Shown here piece after piece: positions 1 to 29,877 of a stretch of DNA of 48,468 bases (positions within the stretch are counted from its first letter, which is position 1; each line of letters starts with the position of its first letter). Location of the stretch: assembly GCA_013607635.1 (NCBI GenBank), contig VCAY01000007.1, positions 1-48,468 of the forward strand. The letters run 5' to 3'. The notes beneath the pieces were generated by a model that did not search any database, was not told where the DNA came from, and worked only from the letters and a program-made list of their open reading frames with translations. The position numbers and the translations under genes were made by a program. The stretch is from Campylobacterota bacterium (GTDB lineage: Bacteria; Campylobacterota; Campylobacteria; Campylobacterales; Sulfurimonadaceae).

Positions 1-1035
1 CTTAAGGTACTAAAGCCTCAAAATGCCAAACTTTTTCGTTTTGATGGTGACCAATTTGTATATATTGTAAACGATTTTTTTAATTTCCGTGAGCTTAAAG
101 ATTTTTCAGAATCTATTATATCTTTTTTTAATCAAACAGATATAGATCTAGAGTATAGGGATATCATTGTTAGGATTTCAATGACCATCGGTGTTGCTAT
201 GGGTAATGGGCTCATAACACTGAATCATGCAGCAGCAGTGCATGAAGCGCGCCGATATAAAAAGGGCTCTTACAAAATTTTTGAAGCAAAATCGGAATAT
301 GCCAAAAGGCAAAGTGAAAATACCTATTGGGTTAACAAGATTAGAGATGCTATTGAAAATGAAAAACTTATTGGTTTTTTTCAACCGATTCGTAACAATA
401 AAACAAAGCAGATTGAGAAATATGAATGTTTAGCACGGATCGATGATGGTATTGAGCTTGCTTCTCCACAACGATTTATGGAAGCTTGTCGCATGACGGG
501 AACACTCTCACTTATTACAAGAAGGATTGCGGCAAACGCTTTTAGGGTATTTAGCCAAACAGATTATGAGTTTTCACTTAACATCACTTCAAACGATATC
601 AACCTTGGGTATCTTGAGGAGTTTTTACTTCTCAATGTCAAAAAATACAATATTGATCCCTCTCGTGTGGTTTTAGAGCTTTTAGAAGATATTGTAACAT
701 TAACCGAATCAGATATGCTTGAGCAGATTAACTCACTTAGAGATAAAGGTTTTAAGATCGCTTTAGATGATTTTGGTGTGGAAAACTCCAACTTTTCACG
801 ACTTCTTGAACTGCATCCCGATTATCTCAAGATTGATGGGATGTTTATTAAAGATATTTTAGAAAACGAAAAAAGCAATCTTATTGTTGAGACGATCGTT
901 GAATTTTGTAAAAAAAGTGGCGTTAAGGTTATTGCCGAGTATATCCACAGCGAAGCAGTGCTACATAGGATCGAGCAGATGGGAATTGAGTATGCTCAAG
1001 GATACTGCATAGGAGCTCCAAAAGATCATCTTTAG
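1..1035 (+). CDS. GGDEF(degenerate)-EAL domain protein, 5' truncated by window edge
   Basis: Frame is open from base 1; degenerate GGDEF signature (FRFDGDQFVYIV); EAL motifs ECLARI, NITSND, LELLED, ALDDFG, LKIDGMFI, AEYIHSE, AQGY. Confidence 0.88.
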   Translation, partial: LKVLKPQNAKLFRFDGDQFVYIVNDFFNFRELKDFSESIISFFNQTDIDLEYRDIIVRISMTIGVAMGNGLITLNHAAAVHEARRYKKGSYKIFEAKSEYAKRQSENTYWVNKIRDAIENEKLIGFFQPIRNNKTKQIEKYECLARIDDGIELASPQRFMEACRMTGTLSLITRRIAANAFRVFSQTDYEFSLNITSNDINLGYLEEFLLLNVKKYNIDPSRVVLELLEDIVTLTESDMLEQINSLRDKGFKIALDDFGVENSNFSRLLELHPDYLKIDGMFIKDILENEKSNLIVETIVEFCKKSGVKVIAEYIHSEAVLHRIEQMGIEYAQGYCIGAPKDHL

Positions 1036-1040
1036 TTTTC

Positions 1041-1815
1041 TTATCTGTTTTGCAATAAGGTTTTTAACTCTTTTATCTCTGAGCGAAGTTGTGCAATCTC
1101 CTCTTTTGATGCAAGTTCAATCTCTGCAGTATCCTCTTTGCTTAAGCTGTTCATAGCATCAACAACGACCGCAACGATAAGATTGATGATGATAAATGTA
1201 ACCACAAAGATAAAGGGGACAAAAAACAGCCAAGCATAAGGGTAGATTTCCATAACAGGACGCGCAATACCCATAGACCAAGACTCGAGTGTCATCACTT
1301 GGAAAAGTGTATAGAGTGATTTGCCAAGTGTACCAAACCATGCAGGAAAATCTTCTCCAAAGAGTTGCGTTGCAAGAATAGCAGATATATAAAAGAGGAT
1401 AATCATGAGCCCAGCAATTGATGCCATGCCCGGAATAACACTTCTAAGGGCAACAACAATTTTTCTCATTTGTGGCATAATAGTGATAATGCGTAATAGC
1501 CTAAAGACCCGCAGGATTCTAAAAATTTCAAAGACACTGTTGGTAGGAAACAAGGAAATAGCTACGATACTTAGATCAAAGAGGCTCCATCCATCTTTAA
1601 AAAATGAAGCTCGATGTGCATAGATTCGTAGGATAATCTCAATCAAAAATATATTAATGATAATTTTGTCAAAAATATCTAATTGATCTTTAATGTTTGT
1701 AAAAAATGGCAGGGTAGGTTTCTAACCCCATTGTGATCCCATTGATAATAATGACCCATAAAATAAAGTTCTTGAATTTATCTGACTCTACGAGAGCGTA
1801 AATTTTTGCATGCAT
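1041..1815 (-). pseudogene. NavAb-like bacterial voltage-gated sodium channel, frameshifted near the S1-S2 loop
   Basis: ORF 1041..1646 carries S4 ([10 protein letters not shown]), selectivity filter TLESWSMG and C-terminal coiled coil. ATG at 1815 with AGGAG SD encodes [38 protein letters not shown] in the other frame. Removing 1 nt joins the frames. Confidence 0.85.
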
Positions 1816-1825
1816 AATATAACTC

Positions 1826-3364
1826 CTAATAGTTGATAGCTACCTTATAGGTTGGATCATCCTCCTCATAGCTGCAATGAGGTCCCGCTTTTTTCAAAAT
1901 ATCCTTGCAATCCGCACTAAGGTGTCGTAAAAGAAGGTTTTTGCCTGCATCTTCATATTTTTTGACAAGATTGTCGATCGCTTCAACACCGGAAAAGTCA
2001 AGTACCCGTGCATTTTTAAAGTCTATCACCACCTTTGGTGGATCTTGCTCAATGGAAAAATTATCGGAAAATGTTGTTGCACTGCCAAAAAAGAGAGGAC
2101 CTTCAAGCTCGTAAACTTTGGTACCATCCTCTTCAACACTTGTTTTTGCCCAAATACGTGCATGTTTCCACGCAAAAACAAGAGCAGCGATAATCACACC
2201 GATAATGACAGCAACAGCAAGATCCTCTATAACAGTAATGATGGTGACAACAACCATCACAAAAACATCTGCTTTTGGCATGTGTTTAAGGTGTGAGAAG
2301 CTTGACCACTCAAAAGTTCCGATACTTACCATAAACATGATCCCAACAAGTACACCGACAGGGATCACATTAAGCACATCTGTCAAGGAGATAACAAGGA
2401 TCAGCAGTCCAACAGCAGCAGTAAAGGAGGAGAGTCTTCCAAGACCACCGGAAGTGTAGTTGATAATCGATTGACCAATCATGGCACACCCGGCCATACC
2501 ACCGAAAAATCCACAGGCGATATTCCCTGTACCCAAAGCGATACACTCTTGATTGCCACTGCCTCGCTCTCCACTCATCTCATCTAAAACTGCCAGTGTC
2601 AAGAGTGATTCAATAAGTCCGACAAGTGCCATAATAACAGCATAAGGAAGCACCATAATAAACGCATCAAGGCTAAAGAGGGTATCTGGAATGATAAGGT
2701 GTGGTAACTGCCCTTTAAACACACTCAGGTTTGCAAGATCACCCACTGTGAGTGTATCGATCTTGGCAAAATAAACGATGAAAGTAAGTACCACAATGGC
2801 AACAAGTCCAGATGGTACCGCTTTGGTGTATTTTGGCAACAGATACATTATAAGCATCGTTACAAATACGATGGCATACATCTCGATACCTTGGCTGTTA
2901 AAGAACTTAAACTGTGCCATAGCGATCACAATAGCAAGTCCGTTGACAAAGCCATAAAGGGCAGGTTGTGGAACAAGGCGGATAAATTTACCAAGTTTCA
3001 AAACACCTACAAGTACCTGAATGACCCCTGCAATGATAGTTGCAAGAAGTACATAATTAAGTACATGGATATAAAGCTCGTCTCCTGTGAGTCCGGCAAG
3101 TTTAAGTTTGTAGTTTGCTTCAAGCACAAGGCCGATAATAACAACAGCAACACTTCCTGTTGCTCCGCTAATCATTCCGGGCTTTCCACCGATGATAGCA
3201 GTGATAAGCCCTAAGATAAATGCAGTGTAGAGACCAACAATGGGACTTACTTCTGCTATAAAACTAAAGGCGATCGCTTCAGGTACGAGTGCAACAGCTA
3301 CAACAAGACCTGAAAGGGTGTCATTTTTGATATTGTGTGATGTATATTTTCGGATATCGAACAA
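1826..3364 (-). CDS. SulP family inorganic anion transporter with C-terminal STAS domain
   Basis: Long multi-TM ORF (track 1826..3391) with SulP core and STAS-like tail (VVIDFKNARVLDFSGVEAID). TTG start at 3364 preferred because of AAGGG SD 7 nt upstream; the track start at 3391 lies almost on a TATAAT box. Confidence 0.9.
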   Translation of the reverse strand: MFDIRKYTSHNIKNDTLSGLVVAVALVPEAIAFSFIAEVSPIVGLYTAFILGLITAIIGGKPGMISGATGSVAVVIIGLVLEANYKLKLAGLTGDELYIHVLNYVLLATIIAGVIQVLVGVLKLGKFIRLVPQPALYGFVNGLAIVIAMAQFKFFNSQGIEMYAIVFVTMLIMYLLPKYTKAVPSGLVAIVVLTFIVYFAKIDTLTVGDLANLSVFKGQLPHLIIPDTLFSLDAFIMVLPYAVIMALVGLIESLLTLAVLDEMSGERGSGNQECIALGTGNIACGFFGGMAGCAMIGQSIINYTSGGLGRLSSFTAAVGLLILVISLTDVLNVIPVGVLVGIMFMVSIGTFEWSSFSHLKHMPKADVFVMVVVTIITVIEDLAVAVIIGVIIAALVFAWKHARIWAKTSVEEDGTKVYELEGPLFFGSATTFSDNFSIEQDPPKVVIDFKNARVLDFSGVEAIDNLVKKYEDAGKNLLLRHLSADCKDILKKAGPHCSYEEDDPTYKVAINY

Positions 3365-3448
3365 AAATTTTCCCTTAGAAAATAGTTGCAAAATTATATC
3401 TTATTTTTCACAGATAACAAAACAGATCTTCGTAGCAAATTGTGTATG

Positions 3449-6133: not shown

Positions 6134-6886
6134 TTATATGCCGGTGACTCTCTTTTTGATTTGGATCTTGTCGCTATACATATCTTGATCTGCTTGTTCA
6201 AGGACCTCTTCTAAGATGGTATCTTTGGAAAAACTACTGAGACCAAAAGAGAAACTGATATGAAAGCTGCCGTTTTGTACTTTAAATTTCTTCTTCAGTA
6301 TATTTTCGCGAAGCTTGGAGAGTTCCTCTTTTGCAATATCAGTGGTGATGCTGTGGTGAAAAAGTATAAGAAACTCATTGCCACCATAGCGTACTACAGG
6401 GTATCTTATGGTTCGTAACATATTAGTGACATATTGCAGTACTTTGTCGCCGACAATGTGTCCGTAGGTGTCATTAATCTGTTTAAAATAGTTCAGATCG
6501 ATAAGTCCAAGAACACCATCTTTTATAAGATGGTTATGGTTTGTAGCATCTTGGTTGAGATAGTGGTCTTGTAACCATTTTCGATTGTATGCTTGTGTAA
6601 GTGCATCTTTATAAACAGCTGCTTTAAGTTTTTCAACCTCAGCACGTAGTTGTTCAGTCTCTTGAAGAACTTCGTGTAAGGTTGTTTCATCTTTTGCTTT
6701 GATCGCCTTTGTTGTTGATCGATCAAGCTGTTTGACATTTTCGGTTGTTTGAGATTCAAGTTGTGATAATTGAGTGCACGTTTCCTCCAAAAGATTTTTT
6801 GCTATTTCGTATTCATCTTCTAAAGAAACATCGTATTTTTTAGCAGTTTCTTGGAAGTAGTTAGTAAAAATTGTTGGGGTGATCAC
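6134..6886 (-). CDS. GGDEF-family (diguanylate cyclase-like) protein with variant GGNEF motif
   Basis: GGDEF domain (DALTQAYNRKWLQ, LIDLNYFKQINDTYGHIVGDKVL, RYGGNEFLILF). Open frame continues upstream to about 6970 without ATG/GTG/TTG. Confidence 0.85.
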   Translation of the reverse strand: MITPTIFTNYFQETAKKYDVSLEDEYEIAKNLLEETCTQLSQLESQTTENVKQLDRSTTKAIKAKDETTLHEVLQETEQLRAEVEKLKAAVYKDALTQAYNRKWLQDHYLNQDATNHNHLIKDGVLGLIDLNYFKQINDTYGHIVGDKVLQYVTNMLRTIRYPVVRYGGNEFLILFHHSITTDIAKEELSKLRENILKKKFKVQNGSFHISFSFGLSSFSKDTILEEVLEQADQDMYSDKIQIKKRVTGI

Positions 6887-7045: not shown

Positions 7046-9127
7046 ATGCCATTAACAAGACTCAATGAAGAGCAGTACAAAGCTGCAACATCCAAACACA
7101 CCAAAAATCTCATCATCGCTTCAGCAGGGACAGGGAAGACCTCGACTATTGTAGGGCGTATAGCATATCTGCTGCAAAACGGTGTGCAGCCACAAGAGAT
7201 ACTGCTACTGACATTTACCAATAAAGCAGCAGCAGAGATGGTAAGTCGTGTGGCAGAATTTTTCGGTAAAAGTGTTGCTGGCAAGATCGATGCAGGAACA
7301 TTTCATGCGGTGAGTTACCGATGGTTGAAAAAAAAAGATAAACGGGTTGTGCTCAAACAGCAAAGAGAGTTAAAAACTCTTTTTCGCTCTGTATTTGAAA
7401 AACGCTCCTTTGGGCATATCGATGCAGATGTGCAAGCATGGGGTGGCAACTACCTTTACGACATCTACTCCTACTACCAAAACACCGAGCTGCAAAAAGA
7501 TTTTTACAATTGGCTTTTAAAAAATCATCCAGAACACGAAGAGTTTGCGATGATCTATGCCGATGTGGTGGATGAGTTTGAGAAGCTCAAAAATGAGTTT
7601 GGTTTTTTAAATTTTAACGACCTGCTGTTAAAGTTTCGTGATCTTTGTAAAAATGAACATCTCGGTTATAAAGAGGTGCTTGTGGATGAGTACCAAGATA
7701 CCAATGCCCTGCAAGGCACACTCATCGATGCGATGGATCCACCCTCACTTTTTTGTGTGGGGGATTATGATCAGAGTATCTACGCTTTTAACGGCGCAGA
7801 TATTACGATTATCGGATCATTTACCCAAAAATATCGTGATGCCGTGGTGCACACCTTAACAAAAAACTACCGCTCAAGCAAACCGATCCTCTCACTGGCG
7901 AACAAGGTGATCGAGATCAATGAACGGATCTACCCCAAAAATCTTGAGGTAACCCGCAGCGATGTTGACATAGCGCCAAAACTACTAGCTTATGATGAAC
8001 TCTTTGATCAGTACCATGGTGTTGCAGATATGATCTCGCGTTCATCTACACCCCATCAAGATATCGCCGTAATCTTTCGTAACAACTCCTCAGCCGATGG
8101 GATCGAAGTGGCTTTACGGGAGATCAACATTACATGTAAGCGTAAAGGGGGAACGAGTTTTTTTGACTCTAAAGAGGTGAAGGGTGTTCTTGATCTTTAT
8201 ACCCTTTTAGTTAATGAATCAGATATGATGGCGTTTATCCACCTGTTTGAGTATGCCAAAGGGATCGGCAGTGCGATGGCAAAAGAGCTTTACATGGCAC
8301 TTAAAAACTTAGGACAGGGGAGTATGTTCTATGGGCTTTATGCACCTGATGAATCGCTGAAAAACCCTTTTGAAAAACGTAAACTTAACCATCAGCTTGG
8401 GCTTTTTGATGATTTTTTGGAACTGGGTGCGGTTGGGAAGTTTGCCAAGCTGGGTTTTGAAGCGAAATTTATGAAAAACCCGATCCTCAAACACCCAAAG
8501 CTTACTAAAGAGGGTGCAGTTTTTTTGCACCATTTTTATGTGTTGTTTCGCGATCTTAAGGGGATCAAGCAGCCAAGAGCGATTGTGCGAAAGATCGCTT
8601 CAAGTGAGTTGTTTTGTTATATTGCCGATCATTTGGCAACAAAAAGGGCGATGCAAAAAGATGGCAAAGTGGATGAGAAACAACAACAAGAGGCACTTGT
8701 ACGCATCGAGCGAAAGATGCAACTCCTCCAAGAGCTATCACAACCCTACAGTGAGCATGAAAGGTTTTTAAATGCGATGATTCTCGGCTCATCCGATCTT
8801 TCGCAGGGTGAAGGGGTGAATCTTCTGAGTGTACATGCATCAAAGGGGCTGGAGTACAAAGAGGTGTATGCGGTGGATCTTATGGATGGGCGTTTCCCAA
8901 ACAGGAAGCTGATGCTGCGTAGCGGTTCACTCGATGAGGAGCGACGACTTTTTTATGTGGCGGTAACAAGGGCAAAAGATATTTTGTACCTTAGTTTTGC
9001 TAGATACGACAAGATCAAAAAACAAAATTTTGTCGCTTCACAATTTGTATACGAAGCAGGGCTGATTCCAAAAGATGAAAGCTACTCGCAGATGGTACTG
9101 CAAGAGTTGAACAAAGTGGAGGATTAA
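7046..9127 (+). CDS. UvrD/Rep family ATP-dependent DNA helicase
   Basis: Walker A SAGTGKTSTIV, VDEYQDTN, GDYDQSIYAFNGA, VHASKGLEYKEVY, RRLFYVAVTRAK. Confidence 0.95.
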   Translation: MPLTRLNEEQYKAATSKHTKNLIIASAGTGKTSTIVGRIAYLLQNGVQPQEILLLTFTNKAAAEMVSRVAEFFGKSVAGKIDAGTFHAVSYRWLKKKDKRVVLKQQRELKTLFRSVFEKRSFGHIDADVQAWGGNYLYDIYSYYQNTELQKDFYNWLLKNHPEHEEFAMIYADVVDEFEKLKNEFGFLNFNDLLLKFRDLCKNEHLGYKEVLVDEYQDTNALQGTLIDAMDPPSLFCVGDYDQSIYAFNGADITIIGSFTQKYRDAVVHTLTKNYRSSKPILSLANKVIEINERIYPKNLEVTRSDVDIAPKLLAYDELFDQYHGVADMISRSSTPHQDIAVIFRNNSSADGIEVALREINITCKRKGGTSFFDSKEVKGVLDLYTLLVNESDMMAFIHLFEYAKGIGSAMAKELYMALKNLGQGSMFYGLYAPDESLKNPFEKRKLNHQLGLFDDFLELGAVGKFAKLGFEAKFMKNPILKHPKLTKEGAVFLHHFYVLFRDLKGIKQPRAIVRKIASSELFCYIADHLATKRAMQKDGKVDEKQQQEALVRIERKMQLLQELSQPYSEHERFLNAMILGSSDLSQGEGVNLLSVHASKGLEYKEVYAVDLMDGRFPNRKLMLRSGSLDEERRLFYVAVTRAKDILYLSFARYDKIKKQNFVASQFVYEAGLIPKDESYSQMVLQELNKVED

Positions 9128-13623: not shown

Positions 13624-14939
13624 TATGCGGTACCTCTGATCTGATAGGTGATATCTCCAGCACCAAAGCCGATGATAAGACCGTTGTCAAGTGTTTTTAA
13701 CTCTTGCTTGTCTTTGACAACCTTGATATGGTTGTTGGCTCTTTGTATTTTGTCTGCGAGTGTAAGGTTGTAACGCTCAAATTTATGTGCAAAGTCGATA
13801 TCTCTGGGTGTTTCACCTGCTGCCCAAACAGGTAAGATGATAAGCTCCTGCGCCCCTTCAAAACACTTAATAAACTCTTCAAGATTATCGATAGTGCGAG
13901 AGTATTTGTGTGGCTGCCAGATCGCTGTGATCTTCTCAAACCCTTTAAGCTGTGCATACTCTTTGACCGATTGGAATGTTGCTTTGATCTCTGTTGGGTG
14001 GTGCCCATAGTCATCGATGATCACACTGCCGTTACCTTTGCTGATGATATCGAAGCGTTTTTTGATCCCTTTGAAGTTTAAGAGATTTTTTCTGATACTC
14101 TCAATATCCATACTCTGGCTTGCTGCTAGGATCGCTAAAGAAGCATCGATGGCGATATGTTTGCCAAACCCCCAAACATCAAAGCTGCCTAGATCTTTGA
14201 GTTTAAATCTTGTGTGTGGCTCGTCGTTGATGAGAACAAATTCGATATCTTGAATATCTTTGCTAGGGTACAGCCATGAAGCATCGCTAAACTCATCTTG
14301 AAGGGTTGCTAGAAAAGGGTCTTCTGCATTGAGTATCTTGGAAGGTGCCAAGCGGATGAAAGTTTTGTACGACTCATAAAATCTGTCGTAGTTGTAGTCA
14401 TAGTACTCCATGTGTTCCGGCTCAGCATTGATAACGATCGCACAGTGGGGGTTGGAGTTGATAAAACTGCCGTCACTCTCATCTGCTTCAAAGATCATCG
14501 TATCGTTACTTGCATCGTAGCGCACATTGGAGCCAAACGCCTTGGACTCGGCACCAATGATTGCTGAGCCTTGCATGATCGAAGCGAGGATTGCTGTTGT
14601 GGTGCTTTTACCGTGTGCTCCTGCAACGGAGTAAACTTTTTTATCATTTAAGATCTTTAGCAGTGCTTCGCGTCGTGCCATCACTTCGATCTTTTTCTCT
14701 TTGGCTGCTACAACTTCTGGATTGTCAGGGCGGATAATAGCGGAGTGGATCACAAGATCTTGATCACTAATCGCATCAGCGCTATGTGGAACTGTGACTT
14801 TGATCCCCAGATCACGAAGTTTTTGTGCGATCACGGTATCTTTGATGTCTGAGCCACTTACCTCATGCCCTTGAAAGTGCATATATTGCGCCAAACCTGA
14901 GATCCCGATGCCGCCAATGCCGATAAAGTGTATCTTCAT
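13623..14939 (-). CDS. murC: UDP-N-acetylmuramate--L-alanine ligase
   Basis: GIGGIGISGLAQ, AGAHGKSTTTAIL, EADESDGSF, DDYGHHPTEI. Confidence 0.97.
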   Translation of the reverse strand: MKIHFIGIGGIGISGLAQYMHFQGHEVSGSDIKDTVIAQKLRDLGIKVTVPHSADAISDQDLVIHSAIIRPDNPEVVAAKEKKIEVMARREALLKILNDKKVYSVAGAHGKSTTTAILASIMQGSAIIGAESKAFGSNVRYDASNDTMIFEADESDGSFINSNPHCAIVINAEPEHMEYYDYNYDRFYESYKTFIRLAPSKILNAEDPFLATLQDEFSDASWLYPSKDIQDIEFVLINDEPHTRFKLKDLGSFDVWGFGKHIAIDASLAILAASQSMDIESIRKNLLNFKGIKKRFDIISKGNGSVIIDDYGHHPTEIKATFQSVKEYAQLKGFEKITAIWQPHKYSRTIDNLEEFIKCFEGAQELIILPVWAAGETPRDIDFAHKFERYNLTLADKIQRANNHIKVVKDKQELKTLDNGLIIGFGAGDITYQIRGTA

Positions 14940-26187: not shown

Positions 26188-27612
26188 ATGTTTGAAGTGG
26201 TCATCGGACTTGAAGTCCATGTACAGTTAAATACAAAAACAAAACTTTTTTGCTCATGTCCTACGAGTTTTAACCATAAACAAAACACTAACACCTGCCC
26301 AACATGTCTGGCACTACCAGGTGCGCTGCCTGTGTTTAATAAAGAGGTGTTGCACAAATCGATCATGTTTGGTACAGCGATCGATGCAACAATCAACAAA
26401 ACATCCTATTTTGATCGCAAATCGTACTTCTATCCTGATTCTCCATCGGCGTATCAGATCACACAGCTTTACACGCCTGTTGTGGAGCATGGAAAACTCA
26501 GAATCGATTTTGAAGATGGCTCACACAAGGTGATCCGAATTAATCGTGCACATATTGAGGCAGATGCAGGGAAGAATATCCACGATGGTGATATCTCCAA
26601 GGTTGATCTTAACCGTGCAGGTACACCACTGCTTGAGATTGTATCTGAGCCAGATATGAGAAATGGCGATGAAGCAGTTTTGTATCTTAAAAAACTTCAT
26701 GCGATTGTGCGTTATCTTGATATCTCCGATGCAAATATGCAAGAGGGGTCGTTTCGATGTGATGTAAATGTTTCGATCCGTCCAAAAGGGGATGCAAATC
26801 TTTATACGCGTGTAGAGATTAAAAATATCAACTCCTTTAAGTTTATCCAAAAAGCGATCGAAGTGGAAGTTGCACGTCAGGTTGAAGCGTGGGAAGATGG
26901 TGTTTATGATGAGGAGATTGTTCAAGAGACAAGACTTTATGATGCTAACAAAAATGAAACTCGATCGATGCGTGGCAAGGAGGAGGCAGCAGATTATCGC
27001 TATTTTCCAGAGCCAGACCTTTTAAAAGTGGTGGCAACGGATGCAATGCTTGCAACTTACTCAAAGATCCCTGAACTGCCAGATGAGAAGATGCAACGTT
27101 ATGTCGATGAGTATGGTGTGAGCAAATACCATGCGAGTGTGATCACTTCAGATGTTGAGATGGCGAAATATTTTGAAGATATGATGGCTGAGGGGATCAG
27201 TGCTAAAAACGGTGTGAGTTGGCTCTTGGTTGAGCTTCAAGGGCGTCTCAAAGGGGAGAGTGATCTTACAAATACCCATGTCGATGCCAAGAAACTTGCA
27301 ACGCTGGTCAAGAGAATTGAAGATGGCACCATCAGTGGTAAAGCAGCTAAACAGGTACTTGACAAACTCGTAGAGGAGAACCTTGATGTCGATGGTGTGA
27401 TTGATGCCTTAGGAGTCAAGCAGGTTAACGATACAGGAGCGATTGAAGCGATTTGTGATGAGATCATTGCTGCAAATCAAGATAAAGTAGCTGAATATCA
27501 AGGTGGTAAAGAGAAACTGTTTGGTTTCTTTGTTGGTCAGGTGATGAAAGCAAGCAAAGGGAGCGCAAACCCTCAAACAGTTAATGAGATCTTAAAACAA
27601 AAGCTTGGCTGA
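26188..27612 (+). CDS. gatB: Asp-tRNA(Asn)/Glu-tRNA(Gln) amidotransferase subunit GatB
   Basis: [40 protein letters not shown]. Confidence 0.97.
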
Positions 27613-29195
27613 TGCAACTTTTTAACCGTCTTTTAGTCAACTTTGCCTATTTTTTAAGAGCTTCTGTGTGGTACCAGAAGAGAAGACGGTTTTTTTACAA
27701 TCTTCTTGAAAACGATGATTTTAAGCTCAAAAAATATTTTGATCTTTTTATGATGTTTCTCATCTTTTCAAGTGTGGCGATCCTTATTTATGAGGTTAAA
27801 AGAGATGTTCACGATCTTTTGAATTTTTTCAATGCCTATGTGATCTCATTTATCTTTTTTGTTGAGTATATCTTGCGTTTATGGGTGCACAGTAGCGTAA
27901 CTGATATTATTATCAAAGAAGATGAATATAGTGATCTTTTAGGTACTCGATTTAGCTTATGGAAAGTTTTTAAGCAAGTTTTGAAGCAAAAAATGGAGTA
28001 TGTGTTTTCTGCCAAGGCAATTATAGATCTTTTAGCGATCATGCCGTTTTTCCATGAGTTGAGACTTCTTCGTTTGTTTATCCTCTTTCGGGTTTTTAAG
28101 ATCTTTAGATATGCCAAAAGTTTTAACACTTTTGCTTCTGTCTTGGCAACGAAAAAGTTTGAATTTGTTACTTTGGCAATGTTTGCTTCGATCGTTATTT
28201 TTGTTGCATCGGTACTTATCTATGTGATGGAAGCAAACAATCCATCTTCCCCTATAGATACTTTGTATGAAGCATTTTACTGGTCGATTGTCACCATCTC
28301 AACAGTTGGGTATGGTGATGTGGTTGCCGTCACACCTGAGGGGCAGTTTGTTGCTGTGATTGTTATTTTAGCCGGTATCTCTGTGCTTGCTTTTACAACC
28401 TCATTATTTGTTTCTGCATTTAGCGAAAAACTTGAAGATATCAAAGAAGCAAAAGTGATCCAAGAGGTGGCAAAAAACCCCAACACATACATCTTGTGTG
28501 GGTATGAAAATATCGCAAGAGAGTTGGCAAAAAAATTGTTGCGATCCGATTTTGATCTTTTGGTGCTCGATAATGATCCAGAAAATGTCAATCAGGCAAA
28601 AAAAGATGGACTGCGGGTTCTTGCTTATGACCCTGGGCAGGTGGAAAGCTACAGGCAACTTGATCTTAATATAGAAAAACAAGTAGCGGCAATTCTATGT
28701 ACAAGAGAGGATGATGTAGCGAATGTTTATACCGCTTTGACGGTGCGATCGATCGATAAGAGGATTAAGATTATATCTCTCTTGATGCAAAGTGCAAACC
28801 GACAAAAACTGCTTTCTTGCGGTGTTGATGAAATTTTGGATGATAAGGAGTTTGTAGGACTTATTGCAAAAGAGTATCTTGGGCACCCTGTGGCATTTGA
28901 AGCGATCCATGAGATGCGTAGTGAAGACTCCACCATACAGACCCATGAAATCCCTATCACACAAAGAGTTGCAGACAATATTTCAATGGTGGGAGAGCTT
29001 AACAACATAAAGTTTCGTATTGTTCTTATTGGGATCTACAAAAAGGAAAAACAGCATTTTTATTTTAACCCGATAGATAGCACATTGTTAGAAGTTGGTG
29101 ATGTCCTTATCATTATCGGAAACTATGTTTTTATCCATGAGTTTACCAAATATCTTGCTTCTAAAACAGCCAAAGGAGCAAAATATGTCCAATAA
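27612..29195 (+). CDS. 6TM potassium channel protein with RCK (TrkA-N/TrkA-C) domains
   Basis: S4-like RLLRLFILFRVFKIFR, selectivity filter TVGYGD, TrkA-N-like domain ILCGYENIARELAKKL, C-terminal TrkA-C-like segment. Confidence 0.9.
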   Translation: MQLFNRLLVNFAYFLRASVWYQKRRRFFYNLLENDDFKLKKYFDLFMMFLIFSSVAILIYEVKRDVHDLLNFFNAYVISFIFFVEYILRLWVHSSVTDIIIKEDEYSDLLGTRFSLWKVFKQVLKQKMEYVFSAKAIIDLLAIMPFFHELRLLRLFILFRVFKIFRYAKSFNTFASVLATKKFEFVTLAMFASIVIFVASVLIYVMEANNPSSPIDTLYEAFYWSIVTISTVGYGDVVAVTPEGQFVAVIVILAGISVLAFTTSLFVSAFSEKLEDIKEAKVIQEVAKNPNTYILCGYENIARELAKKLLRSDFDLLVLDNDPENVNQAKKDGLRVLAYDPGQVESYRQLDLNIEKQVAAILCTREDDVANVYTALTVRSIDKRIKIISLLMQSANRQKLLSCGVDEILDDKEFVGLIAKEYLGHPVAFEAIHEMRSEDSTIQTHEIPITQRVADNISMVGELNNIKFRIVLIGIYKKEKQHFYFNPIDSTLLEVGDVLIIIGNYVFIHEFTKYLASKTAKGAKYVQ

Positions 29196-29877
29196 TAGGA
29201 TTATTCTCATATTTGGTAACAATGAATATGCACAAAAGATTTATGAAAGTGTAGAGTCCAAGTGTGACAAGGCTGTTATGTTTGGACTGCAAGAGCCTGA
29301 TGAAGAGCAGCATCGTGTGCAACAGTTTGATTTAAGTGACAACTGGGACGATCTTAGGGAAAACTATGATATGCAAAATGCTATCATCTTTTGTGCTTTG
29401 CAAAATGAAGCGCAGAATATTTTTTTGACCTTATCGCTTCATGCAGCGTTTGAGAATGTTGATATTATCGCCCTAGCAAGAAACCAAGAAGATGCCAACA
29501 AGTTATATATGGCAGGTGCAACAAAGGTTATACCGATTGTTGAAACAACAGCGCTCATCATCGCAGATATGATAAAAAAGCCGATAATTACCAACTTACT
29601 ACACAACATTCTCTATGAAGAGAGTAGCTTAAAACTGATGCAAATCGAGATCCATAACGCAGAACATTTTGAGGGAAAATACCCTGCAGATATTAACTGG
29701 AGTAGAGATCATGGCATCATTGTGTTGTCTGTGATCACTTATGATGGTGTCAGTGAGTTTATATACTCCTCAAAAACAAAATATAGAGAGATACACAACG
29801 GGGATCTCTTTGTGGTGATAGGTTATGAAAAAGATCTGCAAGAGTTTAAAAAGTTTATAGGTGAAGCAAATGGGTAA
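29185..29877 (+). CDS. Stand-alone RCK/TrkA-N domain protein
   Basis: Start MSNNRIILIFG with AAAGGAG SD (longer track start at 29095 rejected); Rossmann-like repeats and C-terminal TrkA-C-like segment; 11-nt overlap with upstream channel gene. Confidence 0.8.
   Translation: MSNNRIILIFGNNEYAQKIYESVESKCDKAVMFGLQEPDEEQHRVQQFDLSDNWDDLRENYDMQNAIIFCALQNEAQNIFLTLSLHAAFENVDIIALARNQEDANKLYMAGATKVIPIVETTALIIADMIKKPIITNLLHNILYEESSLKLMQIEIHNAEHFEGKYPADINWSRDHGIIVLSVITYDGVSEFIYSSKTKYREIHNGDLFVVIGYEKDLQEFKKFIGEANG

Follow-up and report, generated by a model that had tools for sequence, protein, structure and literature searches.

A NavAb-type voltage-gated sodium channel gene lies on the minus strand at positions 1041-1815 of the window analysed here (48,468 nucleotides of a Sulfurimonadaceae contig), and its coding sequence is split over two frames. 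The question raised by this locus is whether the split is a mutation carried by the cells, an error of the assembly, or an arrangement from which a working product is still made. The original prediction, made from the letters alone, had recognized a NavAb-like channel with a four-arginine S4 and a TLESWSMG filter, placed S1 in another frame starting at ATG 1815 behind an AGGAG, and proposed a single-nucleotide frameshift between them.

To establish the identity of the two pieces, each was searched separately. The C-terminal part matched the Ion_trans family (PF00520, E 4.3e-31, profile positions 48-239) and NavAb (PDB 3RVY, E 8.6e-81), the NavAb entries being its closest solved structures; it carries four regularly spaced arginines aligned to RVLRVLRLFR of NavAb and a selectivity filter, TLESWSMG, identical to that of NavAb. 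The S1 piece searched alone with phmmer matched NavAb residues 1-34 with an E value of about 3e-6 and is therefore no chance match. Identity to the relative in the genome G012 is 76% for the S1 piece and 76-78% for the C-terminal part. Both elements of the proposed channel are thus as originally described. With S1 taken from the N-terminal part, the six-helix Ion_trans domain is complete, but across two frames, and a single open frame of about 260 residues from S1 to the C-terminal helix is absent, the break lying between 1690 and 1710. The frame from ATG 1815 is closed by a TAA at 1690-1692, with 41 codons before the stop. The open reading frame at 1041-1646 on the minus strand (201 aa, starting with TTG) understates the C-terminal part: its frame is open up to 1721, and TTG 1646 is simply where a mechanical search meets its first start codon. 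The ribosome-binding site of the channel gene, ATTAGGAG, is conserved in the three nearest relatives. From its sequence, the assembled gene reads as a broken copy of a member of the bacterial Nav (NavAb/NaChBac) family and not as a functional member. The features of the locus are collected in Table 1.

Table 1 Features of the split channel gene and of its neighbours, in window coordinates.
Feature	Position	Strand	Evidence
EAL-domain protein, 5' end off contig, convergent downstream neighbour	1..1035	+	PF00563, E 7.9e-55
C-terminal part of the channel: S2 to S6, TLESWSMG selectivity filter, C-terminal helix	1041..1697	-	PF00520, NavAb match
Frame-change zone (net +1 nt) with the A6 run at 1701-1706, T6 in the coding strand	1690..1710	-	HSP ends, direct reading
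N-terminal part of the channel (S1), 37 residues from ATG 1815	1705..1815	-	phmmer to NavAb residues 1-34
AGGAG ribosome-binding site shortly before ATG 1815, at the stop codon of SulP	1816..1828	-	direct reading
Upstream neighbour: anion transporter of the SulP family with a STAS domain	1826..3391	-	PF00916, E 1.7e-51; STAS, E 1.6e-11

The size of the change follows from the spacing of the conserved residues. Residues 34 and 58 of NavAb are separated by 23 residues, or 69 nt, whereas the corresponding stretch of the window, from 1713 to 1644, has 70 nt; the change is therefore a net +1, whatever position the extra base has. The two frames can be joined by a change of one base, in agreement with the proposed single-nucleotide frameshift. 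Its place is less sharply defined. Matches to an intact relative stop at 1705 and restart at 1697 in a different frame. The A6 tract at 1701-1706, named beforehand as the simplest location, is present, and the lesion likely lies in it, although by sequence it may lie anywhere within 1690-1710: when its nucleotides are compared with those of the three nearest relatives, the site is explained about equally well by one insertion and by an in-frame +3 with a nearby -2. These relatives have ATC CAC or ATT CAT where the window has the A6/T6 run, which is therefore no conserved feature.

We then asked how the gene is organized elsewhere. Homologues were found in 40 of the 135 genomes of the genus (probably Sulfurimonas), roughly a third, so that the gene is dispensable and its loss tolerable. 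S1 to S6 are in one frame in all 108 homologues with enough sequence. Among 109 homologous loci, 106 give a single stop-free match that spans S1 to S6. In another two, L045 and L070, one match likewise spans S1-S6 and no stop occurs before the end of S6 (in L045 the stop is at the normal end). The last locus is truncated by the end of its contig and stands outside the 108 comparable ones. In the L070 homologue, from Rhizobium halophilum, an in-frame stop interrupts the gene directly behind S6 (residue 226, about 4502) and is followed by an intact-looking stretch coding for the C-terminal coiled coil, with a second stop at its end. The nearest orthologues, in the Sulfurimonas species G012, G076 and G094, are 75-79% identical over the C-terminal part and have S1-S6 in one frame. 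The idea that orthologues naturally begin at the position of TTG 1646 without S1 is ruled out, as S1 is present in the same frame in the orthologues.

The age of the lesion was approached through the constraint on the C-terminal part. In codon comparisons, the window gave dN/dS values of 0.08-0.10 against its near relatives, compared with 0.06-0.09 for those relatives among themselves; the ratios are rough since synonymous sites are near saturation. Tajima counts against G012 were balanced with three of four outgroups, indicating no excess of rate; the exception was the outgroup G094, which is nearer to G012 than the window is. No additional stop or indel was found in the channel gene. With this ratio and no other lesion, the break is either very young or not real, and normal selection has acted on the gene up to a very recent time, or acts on it even now. 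An old pseudogene was rejected, as there is neither relaxed constraint nor further lesions. A sequencing error and a recent pseudogene, both named at the outset, stand as the main readings.

The first of these would place the frameshift in the data: an error of sequencing or of the consensus, or a mixture of strains collapsed into one sequence, with the channel gene of the organism intact. The genome is a fragmented draft (1.4 Mb at 92% completeness, the window being one of its 72 contigs), a homopolymer is found at or beside the site of the change, and the purifying selection and lack of other lesions described above would be expected of an intact gene. To see whether the draft is prone to such errors, about 1.25 Mb of it (G000), taken in pieces, was compared with about 1.1 Mb of G012, covering the 459 comparable genes (456 kb) that lay whole within a piece and had a counterpart. 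Clean single-site frameshifts appeared in two of the 459 genes of the window's genome, the channel gene and a GNAT acetyltransferase gene, and two others were more heavily damaged; the reverse comparison gave no convincing case in G012. The compared coding DNA (about 455 kb) holds 767 A6, 284 T6 and 410 A/T runs of at least 7, and the channel lesion is the only one found at an A/T run in it, with none at any of the 410 longer runs. A homopolymer-prone platform would have given many more; homopolymers are thus no systematic source of error in this assembly, although an isolated error or two may have occurred. The GNAT gene (G000:C33:46192-46600; L244, about 6337-6356) is shifted at a G6 tract and occurs in 123 of the 135 genomes of the genus; a homopolymer frameshift in so nearly universal a gene hints that some homopolymer indels of the draft could be errors. 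A few other genomes have internal stops in it as well, so that the GNAT case does not decide between error and mutation. Overall, we give an error in the draft a little less than an even chance.

The two more heavily damaged genes, named from their sequence by eye, encode a nucleotidyltransferase-like protein (L245, about 8437-8738) and a GGDEF response regulator (L122, about 13862-14936); relative to G012, each has missing sequence together with a change of frame. Three further candidates were discarded: the apparent frameshift in L120 is an overlapping upstream reading frame, the hit in L224 an upstream-start artefact and that in L150 a spurious ORF.

Two other readings would leave the split a function. 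Slippage at the A6 tract might switch the channel on and off, as the original prediction also entertained; the lesion does lie in or beside a homopolymer early in the gene, and the remainder is well kept. However, the cut-offs for phase-variable tracts in Campylobacter are 10 or more for A/T and 7 or more for G/C (PMC6321876), and this tract has only six bases, shares its kind with about a thousand other A6/T6 runs and is missing from the three nearest orthologues, which makes phase variation highly improbable. Alternatively, an internal start such as TTG 1646 might give a shortened channel, without S1 and most of S2, acting as a voltage-insensitive sodium pore. Artificial pore-only constructs conduct (PMC3620320), and S3-S6 is undamaged here and normally constrained; a recent loss explains that constraint too, no ribosome-binding site precedes TTG 1646, half a voltage sensor would be left, and the form is seen in no relative, so that we consider it extremely doubtful. 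Taken more broadly, it is very unlikely that the split gene still yields a working product, be it a fraction of full-length channel, made when slippage occurs in the A/T run, or a truncated S3-S6 sodium pore that lacks voltage gating.

A recent lesion in a known kind of gene, to which we give an even chance, agrees with these results because the two pieces match successive parts of NavAb, all 108 comparable homologues are intact and decay is absent; that the assembly has few frameshifts favours it over an error. The lineage of this species would normally have a tetrameric voltage-gated sodium channel of the NavAb type, with S1-S4 as its voltage sensor and S5-S6 as its pore, encoded downstream of SulP and admitting Na+ on depolarisation. 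The frame change between S1 and S2 would have arisen very recently in the sampled cells through a net +1 indel, for which slippage in the six-base A/T run is the simplest source. The mutation would then be present in living cells and the channel inactivated: no channel is expected from the assembled copy, because translation from ATG 1815 would end after 41 codons.

The surroundings of the gene are shared with its relatives. The SulP gene lies 10 bp from the channel start on the same strand, and the two are probably co-transcribed. The order SulP, Nav and convergent EAL is kept in four related Sulfurimonas genomes (window 1-3391; L083, L084, L085, L152) and is common to G012, G094 and G076; in the flanks examined, no SulP homologue was found beside other Nav loci. 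No Rfam family was detected in the window. A second channel gene of the window (27612-29195) was considered as a possible split from the following TrkA_N ORF, and this was rejected: positions 27612-29877 hold an intact K+ channel of normal length with a TrkA_N domain (527 aa), followed by a slightly overlapping, separate RCK-like gene, a pair kept in relatives.

In alkaliphilic Bacillus, Nav channels admit Na+ for pH homeostasis and motility (PMC4225499), and a comparable role is expected, from homology, for the intact channel of this clade; the adjacent SulP gene suggests a possible connection with anion uptake. Our literature search found no paper treating NavAb and Sulfurimonas together. 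The locus is an unremarkable representative of a known gene family, carrying a frameshift that is either young or an artefact, and it changes little of what is known; at most, it indicates that a NavAb-type channel can be lost in Sulfurimonas. Useful by-products are the distribution of the gene in the genus and the SulP-Nav pair conserved in one small clade, which offers a starting point for studying bacterial Nav channels, whose role is poorly understood.

Among known systems, NavAb of Arcobacter butzleri is the nearest, with consecutive matches over the full length, the same four S4 arginines and an identical filter, and MEIYPYAW in the window gene against MEVYPYAW in NavAb. The window gene differs from it in the net +1 nt between S1 and S2, which leaves no full-length frame, and in a C-terminal helix region that is a little shorter. 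The channels of G012, G076 and G094 resemble it in sequence, in their SulP and EAL neighbours and in the ribosome-binding site, and differ in their intact single frame and the lack of an A6/T6 tract at the site. The group of 5HVX and 6SX5, which we take to be NavMs, and BH1501 (NaChBac) belong to the same family by sequence and are more distant, with E values of about 6e-61 and 2e-43, respectively, compared with 9e-81 for NavAb.
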